A stretch of 64,000 nucleotides of DNA from Pseudoxanthomonas suwonensis 11-1 (GTDB taxonomy: Bacteria; Pseudomonadota; Gammaproteobacteria; Xanthomonadales; Xanthomonadaceae), in NCBI RefSeq assembly GCF_000185965.1, contig NC_014924.1:1488001-1552000 (forward strand), written 5' to 3'. The notes beneath the pieces were generated by a model. That model was not told the DNA's origin, did not search any database, and saw only the letters and a list, made by a program, of their open reading frames with translations. Positions 17,649 to 49,457 of the stretch are shown piece after piece. Each line of letters starts with the position of its first letter. Positions within the stretch are counted from its first letter, which is position 1. The translations under genes and the position numbers were made by a program.

Positions 17649-17716
17649 GCGGGGATCACCTGCCGTGAATGCGGCGCGTGCCAGCCTGCCCCGGTCACCC
17701 AGCGACGGAGGCATCC

Positions 17717-18697
17717 ATGGCGACACGCAAGGCCCGCACGCCCGCCACCCCGGCAGGCACCCGCGCTTCGCGCCCCGGGACATCCGCCCGCGGCAGCGCG
17801 AAGAAGACCGCAAGCCGCGCCAGCGCTGACAGCGCGGAGCCCAGGCGCAAGACCGCCAGCGCGTCCCGCACTACGGTGGCGAAGAAAGCCAGTGCGGCCA
17901 GCGGTAGTACCGCACGCAAGAGCGCCGCCAGGAAATCGACCGCGACCGCGGCGAGAAAGGCTGGGGCTCGCAAGGCCGCGACAGGTGCCACCAGAAAGGC
18001 TCCGGCGAAGAAGGCCGTGGCGAAGACGACCGCGGCACGGAGGTCACCCGCCAGCAAGGCCGCTACGACCCGCAAGCCCGCGGCGAAGAAGGCAGCGCCG
18101 GCAAGGAAAGCGACCGCGAAGAAGACGTCGACTGCCAGCAAGTCGGCAGCGGCGAACAAGCCGGCCGCGAAGTCTGCTGCCAGGAAGACCACCGCCAGGA
18201 AGGCCGCGACGAAGAAAGCCGCGGCGAAGAAGGCCGTAGCGAAGAAGGTTGTAGCGAAGAAGGCCGCCACGAAGAAGACCGTGGCAAGGAAGGCGCCCGC
18301 TTCGAAGGCCACGAGAACGCGCACTGCCGCCAACACTTCGGCGCCGAAGCCCACGGCACGCAAGCCGGCTATCGGCCAGGCGACGCGTGCGGCGGCCAGC
18401 GGCAAGCCCGATGGCGCCCGTCGTACGCGCCGCCCGCGCAAGCCCACGCCGGAGGAGGCGCTGCAGCGCACGCACGAGTTGCTCGAGGCGCACAACGAGC
18501 AGGCCAGGCAGGTCCCGGCATGGCGCCTGCTGGAGGGCGGGCAGGGTGGTGGCACCGCTCCGGCGCCGACCGAGGCCTCGCCCGAACTGGCGGTGCGCCA
18601 GAACGAACTGCACCTGGCCGAAACCCGGGCCAAGGCCACCCAGGGCAGCGCCAGCATCCAGGACCGTCGCAACCAGCGGCGGCGCGACCAGCGCTGA
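17717..18697 (+). CDS. histone H1-like Lys/Ala-rich repeat protein (AlgP/Hc1-like)
   Basis: 326 aa. Residues ~1-235 consist of irregular KKA, AKK and RKA pentad-like repeats rich in Lys, Ala, Thr and Ser, like bacterial H1-like proteins such as AlgP. This part should bind DNA non-specifically. Residues ~245-326 form a distinct, less repetitive tail starting RKPTPEEALQRTHELLEAHNE. The ATG follows GGAGG by 5 bp. The GCGAAGAAGGCC-type DNA repeats make length changes by slippage likely between strains. Confidence 0.85.
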   Translation: MATRKARTPATPAGTRASRPGTSARGSAKKTASRASADSAEPRRKTASASRTTVAKKASAASGSTARKSAARKSTATAARKAGARKAATGATRKAPAKKAVAKTTAARRSPASKAATTRKPAAKKAAPARKATAKKTSTASKSAAANKPAAKSAARKTTARKAATKKAAAKKAVAKKVVAKKAATKKTVARKAPASKATRTRTAANTSAPKPTARKPAIGQATRAAASGKPDGARRTRRPRKPTPEEALQRTHELLEAHNEQARQVPAWRLLEGGQGGGTAPAPTEASPELAVRQNELHLAETRAKATQGSASIQDRRNQRRRDQR

Positions 18698-20229: not shown

Positions 20230-21351
20230 ATGGGGGCGGGATCCCTTGCCAGGCGTCGGGTCGAAGCGCTGCTCGCCGATGCCGACGTGAGGATCGGCGG
20301 CGATCGCGCCTGGGACCTGGAGCCACGTGACGAGCGGTTGTGGACGCGCCTGCTGGCGCAGGGCTCGCTGGGACTGGGCGAGTCGTACATGGATGGCTGG
20401 TGGGACACCGGCTCGCTGGACGGCCTGCTACTGCGGCTGATCCAGGCGCGGCTGGGCGAAAAGGTGCGTGGCCTGGCCGGGCTGCGCGACGTACTGGTCG
20501 CGCGCCTGACCAATCCGCAGACCCGCAGCCGTAGCGGCGAGGTCGGGCGCCGCCACTACGACCTGGGCAACGACCTGTACGCGGCGATGCTGGGCCGGCG
20601 GCTGGTCTACAGCTGCGGATACTGGCGCGATGCCGCCGACCTCGATGCCGCCCAGGAAGCCAAGCTCGACCTGGTCTGCCGCAAGCTGCGCCTGCAACCG
20701 GGCATGCGCGTGCTGGACATCGGCTGCGGCTGGGGCGAAGCGCTGAAGTTCGCGGCCGAGCGCTACGGCGTCTCCGGGGTGGGCGTGACCATCTCCGCCG
20801 AGCAGGCCGCCTACGCGCGCCAGCTGTGCGAAGGCCTGCCGATCGAGATCCGCCTGCAGGACTACCGCGACCTGGACGAGCGCTTCGACGCCGTGTTCTC
20901 CATCGGCATGTTCGAGCACGTGGGCGTGCGCAACTACCGCGAGTACTTCGAGGTGGTGCGCCGCTGCCTGCCGCCTGGCGGGCTGTTCCTGCTGCACACC
21001 ATCGGCAGCAACGTCTCGGTGCGGCGCACCGATCCCTGGATCGCGCGCTACATCTTCCCCAACTCGATGCTGCCCTCGGCCGCACAGGTCACCCGCGCCA
21101 GCGAGGGGAAGTTCGTGGTCGAGGACTGGCACAACTTCGGCCCGGACTACGACCGCACCCTGCAGGCCTGGCGCGACAACATCGAGGCGGCGTGGGAGCG
21201 GCTGGGTCCGCGCTACGACGAGCGCTTCAGGCGCATGTGGCGGTTCTACCTGGCCGGGTCCATGGCCAGCTTCCGCGCGCGCCGCGCACAGCTGTGGCAA
21301 GTGCTGCTTTCGCCGGAGGGCGTGCCGGGCGGGCTACGGGTGCCGCGCTGA
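20230..21351 (+). CDS. cfa: cyclopropane-fatty-acyl-phospholipid synthase
   Basis: 373 aa. N-terminal lipid-binding part (~1-105), including GESYMDGWWD, then an AdoMet methyltransferase domain with LDIGCGWGEALKFAAERYG (~162-181) and GVTISAEQAAYA. FSIGMFEHVG and RRTDPWIARYIFPNS are characteristic of Cfa. It transfers a methylene group from AdoMet to unsaturated phospholipid acyl chains at the inner membrane, typically in stationary phase. It follows the DUF3298 lipoprotein gene by 10 bp. No terminator is obvious at its 3' end. Confidence 0.94.
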   Translation: MGAGSLARRRVEALLADADVRIGGDRAWDLEPRDERLWTRLLAQGSLGLGESYMDGWWDTGSLDGLLLRLIQARLGEKVRGLAGLRDVLVARLTNPQTRSRSGEVGRRHYDLGNDLYAAMLGRRLVYSCGYWRDAADLDAAQEAKLDLVCRKLRLQPGMRVLDIGCGWGEALKFAAERYGVSGVGVTISAEQAAYARQLCEGLPIEIRLQDYRDLDERFDAVFSIGMFEHVGVRNYREYFEVVRRCLPPGGLFLLHTIGSNVSVRRTDPWIARYIFPNSMLPSAAQVTRASEGKFVVEDWHNFGPDYDRTLQAWRDNIEAAWERLGPRYDERFRRMWRFYLAGSMASFRARRAQLWQVLLSPEGVPGGLRVPR

Positions 21352-21411
21352 GGCGTGGCGAAAATCTAGCCAACCCTCTTGACACCCCCGCCACTGCTGG
21401 CGCGCAGACGC

Positions 21412-21457
21412 TTATCCACAGCTTCGTGCAGGTTTGATCCACACCGATTGTGGAAAA
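21412..21457. other. cluster of three DnaA-box-like 9-mers
   Basis: Between the convergent ends of cfa and dcp lie TTATCCACA (21412-21420, + strand, a perfect consensus box), TGATCCACA (21435-21443, one mismatch) and, on the minus strand, TTTTCCACA (21449-21457, one mismatch). No promoter is needed here, so a transcriptional role is less likely than DnaA titration. Confidence 0.55.
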
Positions 21458-21484
21458 CCCCCGCGAGCGGCGATCGCAGGAAAG

Positions 21485-21510
21485 AAGACGCCGCCCGTAG
21501 GCGGCGTCTT
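21485..21510 (-). terminator. intrinsic terminator of dcp
   Basis: A perfect 11-bp stem AAGACGCCGCC/GGCGGCGTCTT with a 4-nt loop, followed on the minus strand by TCTTTCC. It lies 8 bp beyond the dcp stop codon. Confidence 0.8.
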
Positions 21511-21518
21511 CGTGGACC

Positions 21519-23702
21519 TCAGCGGCCGGCCTTGTCCAGGCCGCGCTTCTCGAGCAGCGGTTCGATCCGCGGCTCGTGTCCGGCGAAGTCGCGGAACAGG
21601 TCCAGCGCCTCGCGGGTGCCGCCGCGCGAGAGCAGGGTGGCGCGGAAGCGGTCGCCGTTCTCGCGCTTCAGGCCGCCGTTCTCCAGCATCCAGGCCTGGG
21701 TGTTGGCGTCCAGCACCTCCGACCAGATGTAGGCGTAGTAGCCGGCCGAGTAGCCGCCCATGATGTGGCTGAAGTACGGGGTGCGGTAACGCGGCGGCAC
21801 CGGGGCGTAGGCGATGCCGTCGGCGGCCAGCGCATCGGCCTCGAACTTCATCACGCCATCGGCTTCCGGCAGCTTGTCGGCTCCGACCTGGTGCCAGCGC
21901 TGGTCGAGCATGGCCGCGCCCAGGTACTCGGTGGTGGCGAAGCCCTGGTTGAAGGTCGAGGTGGCCTTGACCTTGTCCAGCAGCGCCTGCGGCATCGGCT
22001 CGCCGGTCTCGTGGTGCTTCGCGTAGTTGGCCAGCACTTCCGGCCAGTCGGCCCACATCTCGTTGACCTGCGAGGGGAACTCGACGAAGTCGCGCGGGAC
22101 CGAGGTGCCGCTGAAGTACGGGTAGGTCACGTCCGAGAACATGCCGTGCAGGGCGTGGCCGAACTCGTGGAAGGTGGTGGTGACCTCGTCCCAGGTCAGC
22201 AGGGTCGGGCCGCTGGCCGGCTTGGTGATGTTGAGGTGGTTGGCCACCACCGGCTTGGTGCCGCGCAGCCTGGACTGCGACACGTACGAGTTCATCCAGG
22301 CACCGCCGCGCTTGGACGCGCGTGCGTACGGGTCGAAGATGAAGATCGCCAGCTGGCTGCCGTCGGCGTCGAGCACGTCGTACACCCAGGTGTCGGGGTG
22401 GTACTTCGGCAGGTCGGTACGCTCCTTGAAGCTGATGCCGTAGAGCTTGCTGGCGGCGAAGAACACGCCGTTCTCCAGCACGCTCTTCATCTCGAAGTAG
22501 GGCTTGAGCTGCGACTCGTCGAAGTCGTAGGTCGCCTTGCGCACCTTCTCGGTGTAGTAGGCCCAGTCCCAGGCCTCGAGCTGGAAGGTCGGCTCGCCCT
22601 TGGCGGCCTGCTCGCGGTCGATCATCTTCTGCAGCTCGGCGGCCTCGCGCCTGGCGTTGGCGACGGCGGCGGGCGCCAGCTTGCCCAGCATCTCATTCAC
22701 CGCTTCCGGGGTTTTGGCGGTGGACTGCTCCAGCGAGAACGCGGCGTGGTTCGGGTACCCGAGCAGGGCGGCGCGCTCGGCGCGCAGCTTCATCACCCGG
22801 GCGACGATGCCGGTGTTGTCGTACTCGTTGCCGCGGGCGCCACGGCCGACCGAGGCCTCGTGGATGCGGCGGCGGGCCTCGCGGTTCTCCAGGTAGGCCA
22901 GCGGCGGCTGGCCGGTGGTGTTGAGCAGGGTCACCACGTACTTGCCATCGAGGCCGCGCTTCTTCGCTTCCTCGGCGGCCGCGGCCACCTGGGCGTCGGT
23001 CGAACCGGCCAGCTCCTCGGCGCTGTCAAACACCACGGCCGAGGCGTTGACCTCGTTGAGCACGTTCTGGTCGAACTGGGTGCCCAGCTTGGCCAGCTCG
23101 GCGTTCATGTCCCGCAGCCGCGCCTTGTCCTCGTCGGACAGGTTGGCGCCGGAGCGGACGAAATCGGTGTAGTAACGCTCGACCAGGCGCACGCCCTCGG
23201 CGTCCAGGCCCAGGCTGTCGCGCTGGTCATGCAGCGCCTTGATCCGCTCGAACAGGGCGCCGTCGAGCATGATCGCGTCGCGGTGCGCGGCGAACTTCGG
23301 CGAGTAGTCGGCCTGGATGGCCTTGCGCGCGTCGTTGGTGTCGGTGCCGACCAGGTTGAAGAACACGGCGCGGGCGCGGTTGAGCACCTGGCCGCTGTTC
23401 TCCAGGGCGATGATGGTGTTCTCGAAGGTCGGCGCCTCGCTGTTGGAGGTGATCGCCTCGATTTCCTCCAGCTGCTCGGCCATGCCGGCGTCGAACGCCG
23501 GGGCGAAGTGCTCGTCCTTGACCCGGTCGAAGTGCGGGTACTGCAACGGCAGCTCGCTCTCGACCATGAACGGGTTGTCCTGGGTCGAAGCGGCCGTGGA
23601 GGCCTCGGCGTTGCCGGGGGAGGGACCCTCGGCGCTGGTGCAGGCGGTCATGCCGAGTCCGAGGGCGGCAGCGAGTGCCAGGGAAAGGCCGGTCTTCTTC
23701 AT
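21519..23702 (-). CDS. dcp: M3 family peptidyl-dipeptidase (Dcp-type), lipoprotein
   Basis: 727 aa. A lipoprotein signal ends in GMTAC (Cys21), which places this Dcp in the periplasm or outer membrane, unlike the unlipidated E. coli Dcp. The M3 catalytic domain carries HEFGH at 512-516, and the distal Glu region follows near ~540. The family cleaves dipeptides from peptide C-termini. The start MKKTGLSLALA is chosen because it gives a proper signal peptide; 12 residues upstream do not. A small hairpin CTTGGGA/TCCCAAG sits ~14 nt before the ATG. Confidence 0.93.
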   Translation of the reverse strand: MKKTGLSLALAAALGLGMTACTSAEGPSPGNAEASTAASTQDNPFMVESELPLQYPHFDRVKDEHFAPAFDAGMAEQLEEIEAITSNSEAPTFENTIIALENSGQVLNRARAVFFNLVGTDTNDARKAIQADYSPKFAAHRDAIMLDGALFERIKALHDQRDSLGLDAEGVRLVERYYTDFVRSGANLSDEDKARLRDMNAELAKLGTQFDQNVLNEVNASAVVFDSAEELAGSTDAQVAAAAEEAKKRGLDGKYVVTLLNTTGQPPLAYLENREARRRIHEASVGRGARGNEYDNTGIVARVMKLRAERAALLGYPNHAAFSLEQSTAKTPEAVNEMLGKLAPAAVANARREAAELQKMIDREQAAKGEPTFQLEAWDWAYYTEKVRKATYDFDESQLKPYFEMKSVLENGVFFAASKLYGISFKERTDLPKYHPDTWVYDVLDADGSQLAIFIFDPYARASKRGGAWMNSYVSQSRLRGTKPVVANHLNITKPASGPTLLTWDEVTTTFHEFGHALHGMFSDVTYPYFSGTSVPRDFVEFPSQVNEMWADWPEVLANYAKHHETGEPMPQALLDKVKATSTFNQGFATTEYLGAAMLDQRWHQVGADKLPEADGVMKFEADALAADGIAYAPVPPRYRTPYFSHIMGGYSAGYYAYIWSEVLDANTQAWMLENGGLKRENGDRFRATLLSRGGTREALDLFRDFAGHEPRIEPLLEKRGLDKAGR

Positions 23703-23771
23703 GGGTTGGAACAGTTCCTTGGGAAACAAACCTCCCAAGGGTACCCCAGCCCGCGCCGGCCCGGGGCGGCC

Positions 23772-46659: not shown

Positions 46660-48570
46660 ATGAAAACCGGCCCAGCACTGCCAGTCTCACTCCCGCGTAC
46701 GGCCATCGTCCTGCACGACCTGCTCATGGCGGCCGTGTGCTGGCAGGCACTGCACGTGCTGCGTTACGGCGCCCGCTCCGAGACGTACGACTGGACCCAG
46801 CTGACGCCGACCCTCGCCATCGTGCTGGTCGCACAGGGCCTGGTGTTCTGGCGGGTCGGGCTCTATCGCGGCCTGTGGCGTTTCGCCAGCGTTCCGGACA
46901 TCTGGAACATCCTCAAGGCCGCCGGTCTTGGCACCGTCGCCATCGTCATCTGCCTGGCAATCTACAACCGCATGGACGCGCTGCCGCGTGCAGTGCTGTT
47001 CCTCTATCCGCTGGCCCTGGCCGCGATGCTCGGCGTGCCGCGCCTGCTGTACCGGGTGTGGAAGGACTACAACCTTTCCCGCAGCACCGCGACCCAGCAG
47101 CGCGTCCTGATCATGGGTGCCGGCCAGGCGGCCGACGCCCTGGTGCGCGACCTGCGCCGCTCCGGCGCCTACCAGCCGGTCGGTTTCCTCGACGACGCCC
47201 CGCACCTGCAGGGATCGCAGCTGCACGGCATGCCGGTGCTGGGAACGCTTGAGGAAGCGGCTACCGTGGCCCGCGAGGTCGGCGCCGGCATGCTGGTGAT
47301 CGCCATTCCCTCGCTCGACGCCGCCGGCATGCAGCGCGTGCTCGGCATCTGCGAGCACAGCGGCCTGCCGTTCCGCACCGTGCCGCGCCTGACCGACGTG
47401 CTCGAGGGCAAGGCCCTGCCGGGCGAGCTCAAGGAAGTGGCGATCGAGGACCTGCTGCACCGCAAGCCGGTGACGCCGGACTGGGGCCTGATCCGCGACT
47501 GGCTGGGCGGCCGCACCGTGATGGTGACCGGCGCCGGTGGATCGATCGGCTCGGAGCTGTGCCGCCAGTGCGCGCGCCACGGTGCCAGCCGGATCGTGCT
47601 GCTGGAGATTTCCGAACTGGCCCTGCTGACCATCCATGCCGAGCTGCAGGACGCGTTCCCCGGCGTCGAGGTCGTGGCGGTGCTGGGCGACTGCGGTGAC
47701 CCGGCGGTGACCCGCCGTGCCCTGGAGCGTTGCGCACCCGACGCTGTCTTCCATGCCGCCGCCTACAAGCAGGTCCCGCTGCTGGAAGGCCAGCTGCGCG
47801 AGGCCGTGCGCAACAACGTGCTGGCGACCCACACCGTGGCCGAGCTGTGCCGCGAGTACCGGGTGGGCACCTTCGTCCTGATCTCCACTGACAAGGCGGT
47901 CGATCCGGCCAACGTGCTGGGCGTGTCCAAGCGGGTGGCCGAGATGATCGCCCAGTCCATGGACGAGCGGGTCGAGGGCACGCGCTACGTCACCGTGCGG
48001 TTCGGCAACGTGCTGGACTCGGCCGGCAGCGTGGTCCCGCTGTTCCGCGAGCAGATCCGCCGCGGTGGCCCGGTGACCGTCACCGACCCCGAGGTCACCC
48101 GCTACTTCATGACCATCCCCGAGGCCTGCCAGCTGATCATGCAGGCCGCCGCCTCCGGTTCGCACGCGGCGATCTACACCCTGGACATGGGCGATCCGGT
48201 GCCGATCCGGCTGCTGGCCGAGCAGATGATCCGCCTGGCCGGCAAGCAGCCGGGGCGGGACATCGCCATCGTCTATACCGGGCTGCGCCCGGGCGAGAAA
48301 CTGCACGAAACCCTGTTCTACCCGGACGAGCACTACCGTCCCACCGCCCACCCCAAGATCCTCGAGGCGGGGGCGCGGGGGTGCCCGGCCGACCAGGTCC
48401 TGCAGGAAGTCGAACACATGCGCTTCGCAGTCTCGCGCTATGATGAGAGCACGTTGCGGCAGGCCCTGCAGGTCCTCGTCCCCGAGTTCTCGCCCCGGGC
48501 TGCCGCTGAACCCGAAAACACCGCAACGGTGGTTCAGTTCCCAGCTCGAGAGGCAGCAAGGACAAGATGA
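46660..48570 (+). CDS. WbpM/CapD-type UDP-sugar 4,6-dehydratase, membrane-bound
   Basis: 636 aa. Four N-terminal membrane spans (~15-125), a CoA-binding-like Rossmann region (~145-255: RVLIMGAGQAADALV) and a large C-terminal SDR domain (~280-600) with TGAGGSIGSELCRQ, FHAAAYKQVPLLE, and the catalytic ISTDKAVDPANVLGVSKR, where the usual Met after Asn/Ala is Val-Leu. It probably makes UDP-4-keto-6-deoxy-HexNAc for O-antigen or capsule. The last codons overlap the galU start (ATGA), so the two are coupled. Codon use matches neighbours; no sign of recent transfer. Confidence 0.9.
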   Translation: MKTGPALPVSLPRTAIVLHDLLMAAVCWQALHVLRYGARSETYDWTQLTPTLAIVLVAQGLVFWRVGLYRGLWRFASVPDIWNILKAAGLGTVAIVICLAIYNRMDALPRAVLFLYPLALAAMLGVPRLLYRVWKDYNLSRSTATQQRVLIMGAGQAADALVRDLRRSGAYQPVGFLDDAPHLQGSQLHGMPVLGTLEEAATVAREVGAGMLVIAIPSLDAAGMQRVLGICEHSGLPFRTVPRLTDVLEGKALPGELKEVAIEDLLHRKPVTPDWGLIRDWLGGRTVMVTGAGGSIGSELCRQCARHGASRIVLLEISELALLTIHAELQDAFPGVEVVAVLGDCGDPAVTRRALERCAPDAVFHAAAYKQVPLLEGQLREAVRNNVLATHTVAELCREYRVGTFVLISTDKAVDPANVLGVSKRVAEMIAQSMDERVEGTRYVTVRFGNVLDSAGSVVPLFREQIRRGGPVTVTDPEVTRYFMTIPEACQLIMQAAASGSHAAIYTLDMGDPVPIRLLAEQMIRLAGKQPGRDIAIVYTGLRPGEKLHETLFYPDEHYRPTAHPKILEAGARGCPADQVLQEVEHMRFAVSRYDESTLRQALQVLVPEFSPRAAAEPENTATVVQFPAREAARTR

Positions 48571-49457
48571 CGAAAAGGATTCGCAAGGCAGTCTTCCCGG
48601 TAGCCGGTCTTGGTACCCGGTTCCTCCCCGCAACCAAGACCGTTCCCAAGGAAATGCTGCCGATCATCGACCGGCCGCTGATCCAGTACGCGGTGGATGA
48701 GGCCATCGAGGCCGGGTGCGACACCCTGGTGTTCGTCACCAACCGCTACAAGCATTCGATTGCCGACTATTTCGACAAGCACTACGAGCTGGAGCAGAAG
48801 CTCGAGCAGGGCGGCAAGCTGGAGCAGCTGCAGCTGGTCAGCAAGCCGCTGCCGGACCACGTCCGCGTGGTGTACGTCACCCAGAAGGAAGCCCTGGGCC
48901 TGGGCCACGCCGTGCTCTGCGCCAAGGACGTGATCGGCGACGAGCCGTTCGCGGTCCTGCTGCCGGACGACCTGATGTGGAACCGCGGCGACGGCGCGCT
49001 GAAGCAGATGGCCGACCTGGCCGAGCGCACCGGCGGCGGCGTGATCGCGGTCGAGGAAGTGCCGCGGGAGAAGACCTCCAGCTACGGCATCGTCGCCACC
49101 CGCGACTTCCAGGGCCGCAGCGGCCGCATCGAGGCCATGGTCGAGAAGCCCAAGCCCGAGGACGCGCCGAGCAACCTGGCCGTGGTCGGCCGCTACATCC
49201 TGCCCGGCGGCATCTTCCAGAAGCTGGAGACCACCGGCCGCGGTGCCGGCGGCGAGATCCAGCTGACCGACGCGATCGCCGCGACGATCAAGGACGGCGG
49301 CCATATCGATGCCTACCACTTCGTCGGCCGTCGCTTCGACTGTGGTGCGCACATCGGCCTGATCGAGGCGACCGTGCACTTCGCGCTGGAGCACCCGAAG
49401 CATGGTGCGGCCGCGCGCGAGGCGATGCAGGCGGCGCTGGACGAGAAGCGCGGCTGA
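48567..49457 (+). CDS. galU: UTP-glucose-1-phosphate uridylyltransferase
   Basis: 296 aa. Nucleotidyltransferase signature GLGTRFLPATKTVPKEMLPI at ~14-33, KHSIADYFDKHYELE, VTQKEALGLGHAVL, LLPDDLM, YGIVA, and EKPKPEDAPSNLAVVGRYILP. It makes UDP-glucose for LPS core, O-antigen and exopolysaccharide (xanthan-type) synthesis. It is the last gene of the lapA-lapB-wecA-like-wbpM-like-galU run and ends in a bidirectional terminator. Confidence 0.97.
   Translation: MTKRIRKAVFPVAGLGTRFLPATKTVPKEMLPIIDRPLIQYAVDEAIEAGCDTLVFVTNRYKHSIADYFDKHYELEQKLEQGGKLEQLQLVSKPLPDHVRVVYVTQKEALGLGHAVLCAKDVIGDEPFAVLLPDDLMWNRGDGALKQMADLAERTGGGVIAVEEVPREKTSSYGIVATRDFQGRSGRIEAMVEKPKPEDAPSNLAVVGRYILPGGIFQKLETTGRGAGGEIQLTDAIAATIKDGGHIDAYHFVGRRFDCGAHIGLIEATVHFALEHPKHGAAAREAMQAALDEKRG

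Follow-up and report, generated by a model that had tools for sequence, protein, structure and literature searches.

The closest described systems are the DARS elements of Escherichia coli, which promote ADP release from DnaA and raise initiation when present in additional copies, and, more distantly, datA, where DnaA-bound ATP is hydrolyzed. In the DARS2 type, binding sites for Fis and IHF flank the core. The DnaA boxes of DARS1 and DARS2 have the same spacing in both elements, with box I inverted relative to boxes II and III and a head-to-head contact at boxes I and II, and DARS1 is active in vitro without added factors (available text of PMC5742627). This box arrangement is described as functionally essential and box III as stimulatory (available text of PMC10380432), and the head-to-head I/II pair is given as an essential feature of the E. 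coli DARS (parts available of PMC10380432, PMC8682772, PMC5742627). At datA, an IHF site lies between the boxes and DnaA assembles head to tail (PMC5742627, same text). What the available sections of the cited papers say on DARS function comes from work in E. coli, with a general mention of conservation among other proteobacteria; DARS-like sequences are said to occur in many proteobacteria (PMC10380432). No paper on DARS in Xanthomonas was found in the open-access literature. Comparison of the E. coli K-12 sequences revealed the layout box(+)-5-box(-)-3-box(-), i.e. I-5bp-II-3bp-III, in the cores of both DARS1 and DARS2.

The window analyzed here is a stretch of 64,000 nucleotides from the genome of Pseudoxanthomonas suwonensis 11-1, a single 3.42-Mb contig. 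A sequence-only reading had pointed to three DnaA boxes on both strands within 46 bp, lying between the ends of convergent cfa and dcp genes where no promoter is expected, and had proposed that the site titrates DnaA (datA-like) or re-activates it (DARS-like). The three boxes were located by sequence search at 1.509 Mb of the contig. They lie inside the 167-bp gap between a cfa-like and a dcp-like gene, which are indeed convergent, and the promoter scan detected no promoter-like hexamers at the site. The coordinates of all features are listed in Table 1.

Table 1. Features of the window site and its surroundings (positions within the window)
Feature	Position	Strand	Remark
DnaA box I TTTTCCACA	21449-21457	-	module positions 1-9
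DnaA box II TGATCCACA	21435-21443	+	inverted relative to box I, 5-bp gap, module positions 15-23
Weak partial box TCGTGCAGG	21424-21432	+	II-III spacer, module positions 26-34
DnaA box III, perfect TTATCCACA	21412-21420	+	orientation as box II, 14-bp gap
TTGACA	21379-21384	+	TGTCAAG flank on the module strand
Dyad TGGCGAAAATCTAGCCA	21356-21372	no strand	62 bp from box II
Whole module (~102 bp), I-5-II-14-III-39-dyad	21356-21457	-	
Terminator-like hairpin, dcp end	21484-21511	-	assigned to dcp, not to the module
CMAS-family (cfa-like) gene	20230-21351	+	
Peptidase M3 (dcp-like) gene	21519-23738	-	

Read on the minus strand, the site has the form TTTTCCACA-5-TGTGGATCA-14-TGTGGATAA. Box I is a full match to the usual DnaA-box consensus TTWTNCACA. 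The window copy of the spacer box is poor and agrees with TTATCCACA at 4 of 9 letters, or 5 if the fifth base is left free. The dyad starts a few bases past the stop of the cfa-like gene. Two further motifs had been noted in the gap. The TTGACA is real and belongs to a conserved flank: of the 13 loci linked to dcp or cfa, 11 contained TGTCAAG, the window included (read by hand), and it was also seen, among the modules listed, in many from Pseudoxanthomonas, Xanthomonas, and Stenotrophomonas. The motif GCGATCGC at 21470 is likewise present, but of the 13 linked loci (60 bp searched) the window's own was the only one to contain it, and it looks incidental. The stretch with the hairpin at the dcp end folded with -28.6 kcal/mol (z -4.57) and was not among the results of the consensus terminator scan. 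An Rfam scan of 20500-22500 gave no family at the curated threshold. Elsewhere in the window, 17669-18697 (+) encodes a lysine/alanine-rich protein that matches the histone H1-like HC2 family.

As a mere count, three boxes in the window are nothing unusual. With one mismatch allowed, TTATCCACA has no match in the whole 64 kb besides these three; shuffled sequences gave a mean of 2.04, and 33 of 100 shuffles reached three. Genome-wide, seven perfect copies of TTATCCACA were found, against six for a reversed-string control. By contrast, with a box density of 0.116 per kb (37 boxes in 320 kb sampled), a simple Poisson estimate predicts about 0.004 clusters of three boxes within 46 bp per genome. 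As to random box density, a point raised by the sequence-only reading, the count is at chance level, and the unusual feature is the clustering within 46 bp. The order, orientation, and spacing of the boxes are far more specific than clustering as such. Five of the seven perfect copies lie inside DARS-like sites; the other two are single boxes at 1382334 and 2788351. No perfect TTATCCACA was found beside dnaA (first 4000 bp and last 4 kb of the contig).

The window site and the E. coli DARS have three boxes in common, with box I opposite to II and III, in a non-coding location. The I-II gap is exactly 5 bp, and a candidate site for a nucleoid protein is found on the box III side. The differences concern, first of all, the II-III gap of 14 bp instead of 3 bp, which places box III 11 bp, or about one helical turn, further out. 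In addition, the window module has a weak partial box between II and III, it is compact (102 bp) and without a consensus IHF site, and such modules often occur several times per genome and close to the terminus. As the 3-bp II-III gap was not found, the site is termed DARS-like and not classed as a DARS. With datA and the DnaA-box clusters of Bacillus and Streptomyces it shares an intergenic cluster of DnaA boxes away from oriC. Unlike datA, with its IHF site between the boxes, the 5/14 modules (named after their two gaps) show no recurrent IHF consensus. Judging from sequence and layout, we favor with moderate confidence the reading that the window site is a DARS-like cis-acting element for DnaA nucleotide exchange, combined with a site for a nucleoid protein, perhaps Fis.

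The inverted pair with 5-bp spacing (≤2 mismatches) was found at four places in the genome and at none with the control. These are the window site, a tandem pair at 1375810 and 1375936 with the same 5/14 layout as the window site, and 3007868-3007902. Across the family, the 5/14 core (≤3 mismatches) was detected in 107 of 297 genomes and 16 of 54 genera, including all 17 genomes of the own genus, and reversed-pattern controls gave no match. Positive genomes carried one to seven modules; with the search pattern used, 190 of the 297 genomes had none. A scan of named genomes gave at least 119 stretches. Among the 119 listed, 110 had titles naming Lysobacterales taxa, seven came from MAGs labeled otherwise or broadly, and two bore bracketed [Pseudomonas] names. 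When both gaps were left free, all 12 matches were 5/14, and among the 150 matches listed for a second free-gap design, 142 were 5/14 and eight were 5/15. Gap counts among the retrieved loci are biased because most of these loci were fetched with a 5/14 pattern. The module set for the following comparisons comprised 215 distinct places (≤4 mismatches), 213 of them with full flanks and 135 non-redundant (<80% mutual identity).

Tandem arrays of three to five modules were seen in Luteibacter anthropi, Stenotrophomonas humi, and one further locus; in L. anthropi, five modules follow one another at steps of about 181 bp. Strict helical phasing of tandem copies was considered and dropped. A periodicity near 10.5-11.3 bp is a hint only, derived from 23 start-to-start distances, each counted once, with five periods tried and relatedness uncorrected.

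The fixed geometry bears on the main rival explanation, a DnaA titration site. Such a site, whether a cluster of the Bacillus type or a passive datA-like sink, would lower free DnaA and leave its nucleotide unchanged. Near-perfect boxes and several copies in many genomes would suit this function, and chromosomal DnaA titration is supported in E. coli (available text of PMC12371093). However, a titrating site could do without a constant spacing, an inverted pair, and a dyad, and the 150 listed free-gap matches fell into two gap combinations. One to seven copies per positive genome would make few sinks. Furthermore, the box-dense region described in the same text lies near the origin (PMC12371093), whereas the 5/14 modules lie near the terminus. 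We regard titration as rather unlikely.

Conservation of the modules extends beyond the boxes. The II-III spacer is conserved outside the search letters, with A at module position 34 in 95% of the 135 non-redundant modules. In 50 of these 135, the weak box in the spacer had at most three mismatches to TTATCCACA, compared to about 0.9% of background 9-mers. A dyad of the type TGG-AT-rich-CCA is conserved at module positions 86-102. At this offset, 43% of modules have TGG-N11-CCA without deviation, and in 73% the dyad core is AT in at least six of seven positions, compared to 1.6% in the flanks. Most often the dyad begins 62 bp after box II (43% exact; 14% at 61), and the same holds for sites with the E. 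coli-type 5/3 core described below (74% of 31 exact; 19% at 63). This common offset indicates one shared scaffold, in which box III differs by 11 bp.

A similar dyad, TGGCGAAAGATCAACCA, is found at E. coli DARS2, though at 162 bp from box II and not at 62; DARS1 has no such dyad within 162 bp of box II. The DARS2 dyad (1321-1337 of the retrieved E. coli stretch) ends 9 bp before a perfect box at 1347, which is presumably DnaA box V and would put the dyad in the FBS2-5 stretch. As dyads of the TGG-CCA type are not rare in E. coli (three in 14 kb), the DARS2 dyad was not taken as proof.

The dyad ends match the end-to-end geometry of the Fis 15-mer, for which the consensus is given as GnnYAnnnnnTRnnC (available text of PMC8682772, PMC4245941); the window copy has one mismatch (read by hand). 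This consensus was fully matched in 17% of the 135 modules and within one mismatch in 42%, and at the corresponding offset of the 5/3 sites the values were 6% and 26%. Fis is encoded in the genome (119.5 bits, cut-off 99) and may be named as the first candidate for the dyad binder, an assignment that is a guess. The IHF consensus WATCAAnnnnTTR did not recur at any fixed place in the 5/14 modules. An apparent IHF site at module position 33 was rejected, as this 2-mismatch signal (47%) was produced by the DnaA boxes themselves. Of the two functions proposed by the sequence-only reading, the datA-like one is not supported by the sequence, since no IHF consensus recurs at a constant position of the modules. 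The DARS-like one is well supported in its architecture by the inverted pair, its 5-bp spacing, the orientation of box III, the conservation, and the dyad shared with a DARS-type core.

That DARS-type core lies at 3007868-3007902 of the same genome, where an exact E. coli-type 5/3 core precedes, by about 113 bp, a reading frame for a protein that we take to be PriA. The 5/3 core was detected in 96 of 119 family genomes and 45 of 54 genera (controls 0), and priA lay beside 27 of the 30 loci examined. It shares the I-5-II pair and the dyad 62 bp from box II with the 5/14 module. It differs in that box III follows box II at the E. coli distance of 3 bp and that relatives have an IHF consensus. 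It also usually occurs once per genome and lies closer to the origin, at 0.21-0.31 of the replichore in six genomes. The IHF consensus WATCAAnnnnTTR is placed 98 bp after box II (26% exact, 71% within one mismatch, n=31). In a single genome, three 5/3 cores were seen within 800 bp (contig C13 of G115, 48420-49193), and three genomes of one group had two each. The 5/3 type may already be published, given the statement on DARS-like sequences in proteobacteria in the available text of PMC10380432. Among the open-access papers listed on DARS conservation or DnaA boxes, nothing on the 5/14 module was seen.

The existence of this core also matters for the idea that some unrelated dimeric protein recognizes the inverted CCACA-5-TGTGG pair, whose likeness to DnaA boxes would then be secondary. 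Position 5 of box I is C in 98% of modules, partly since the search patterns required C, although DnaA tolerates any base there. Box III, on the other hand, stands alone and is asymmetric, yet it is a near-perfect DnaA box whose letters are equally strict. Moreover, an exact core of the E. coli DARS type exists in this genome, and that type carries the same dyad. An unrelated protein appears very improbable to us.

In the own genome, dnaA lies at the contig start. GC skew, determined for 21 sampled stretches, was predominantly positive between 0.18 and 1.72 Mb and predominantly negative beyond 1.80 Mb; minor exceptions occurred at 1.26, 2.52, and 3.40 Mb. This switch places the terminus near 1.72-1.80 Mb; a weak dif-like match (three mismatches) was found at 1714734. 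The window site, at 1.509 Mb, was rejected as oriC in view of the position of dnaA and the skew switch elsewhere, and the 1.376-Mb sites were ruled out likewise by dnaA at the contig start. With the terminus assumed at contig half, the window site lies at 0.88 of the right replichore and the tandem pair at 0.80. On the same assumption, 85 of 87 modules in 21 genomes from six genera were in the terminus-proximal half (minimum 0.47). These genomes had been chosen for having a module and a single contig, except G287 (two contigs), and one of them, G282, is 57% complete. For comparison, E. coli DARS1 lies at 0.66 and DARS2 at 0.41 of the replichore, DARS1 being co-oriented and DARS2 not.

The modules are also polar. 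In the 21 genomes, 80 of 87 were oriented from origin to terminus, switching strand at the terminus. The seven exceptions were five dcp-linked copies, the window site among them, one copy in G276, and one in G250, which sits at 0.97, beside the terminus. Position and polarity would suit a terminus-zone element, i.e. a polar complex of DnaA and the dyad that organizes the terminus or affects forks, with the boxes serving as an anchor and not for exchange. However, the dcp-linked copies were inverted in all five genomes carrying them, the window included (neighbors checked), and the 5/3 relative lies nearer the origin. Moreover, the polarity may reflect inherited synteny or strand skew, and orthologous copies are not independent. 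We consider such an element improbable.

The genes flanking the modules vary widely. Among the 215 module places, 13 lie beside dcp or cfa and 53 beside a NUDIX gene, and 137 match no reference gene within 700 bp. The gene arrangement at 155 classed modules was convergent for 79, same-direction for 65, and divergent for 11. These counts are approximate, because the automatic choice of reading frames assigned at least one gene to the wrong strand (NUDIX, one locus); 49 of the 215 modules fell inside a chosen, possibly spurious, reading frame. Of the 215, the 60 left out of this classing comprised 31 far from a gene and 29 at the edge of a locus. The modules could also be sites where DnaA and another protein regulate cfa, dcp, or other neighbors; DnaA is known to act as a transcription factor, and the 5/3 site precedes the presumed priA frame. 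At the window, however, the genes converge and no promoter-like site was detected, the neighbors of the modules are many and different, and few of the classed modules lie between divergent genes. Regulation of transcription is the least probable of the explanations weighed here. For a DARS-like element, few divergent placements are what is expected if transcription disturbs it. Transcription through plasmid-borne DARS or datA abolishes their effect, and position matters (available text of PMC5010248); the intergenic placement of the modules would fit this sensitivity.

If the window site acts in a DARS-like way, boxes I and II would be occupied by DnaA protomers in the head-to-head manner of the E. 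coli DARS. Box III, perhaps via the weak intermediate box, may then load or stabilize a further DnaA protomer. The dyad at 62 bp would be the target of a nucleoid protein, Fis being the foremost candidate, that gives the complex its shape. ADP would thereby be released from DnaA and ATP-DnaA regenerated. In this scheme, the 5/3 core beside priA would be the DARS that is replicated earlier on the same chromosome, and the 5/14 modules, usually several per genome, would form a set that is replicated late.

As a more tentative and on the whole doubtful proposal, Lysobacteraceae such as Xanthomonas, Stenotrophomonas, and Pseudoxanthomonas might recharge DnaA in two tiers. The first tier would be an E. 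coli-type DARS beside priA, usually one and replicated earlier; the second would consist of one to seven compact 5/14 modules, most of them polar, on the terminus side of the chromosome. Late duplication of the latter would tie regeneration of ATP-DnaA to a round of replication near completion, and the window site would be one such late module.

The 5/14 module offers a natural 11-bp displacement of box III and a compact version without IHF consensus for studies of the mechanism. Its terminus-near position in six genera makes it a testable idea that late replication of DARS-like elements times the next initiation. In a family that includes crop- and hospital-associated species, an element that is precise and easy to locate would reveal how the reactivation of DnaA is organized outside E. 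coli.
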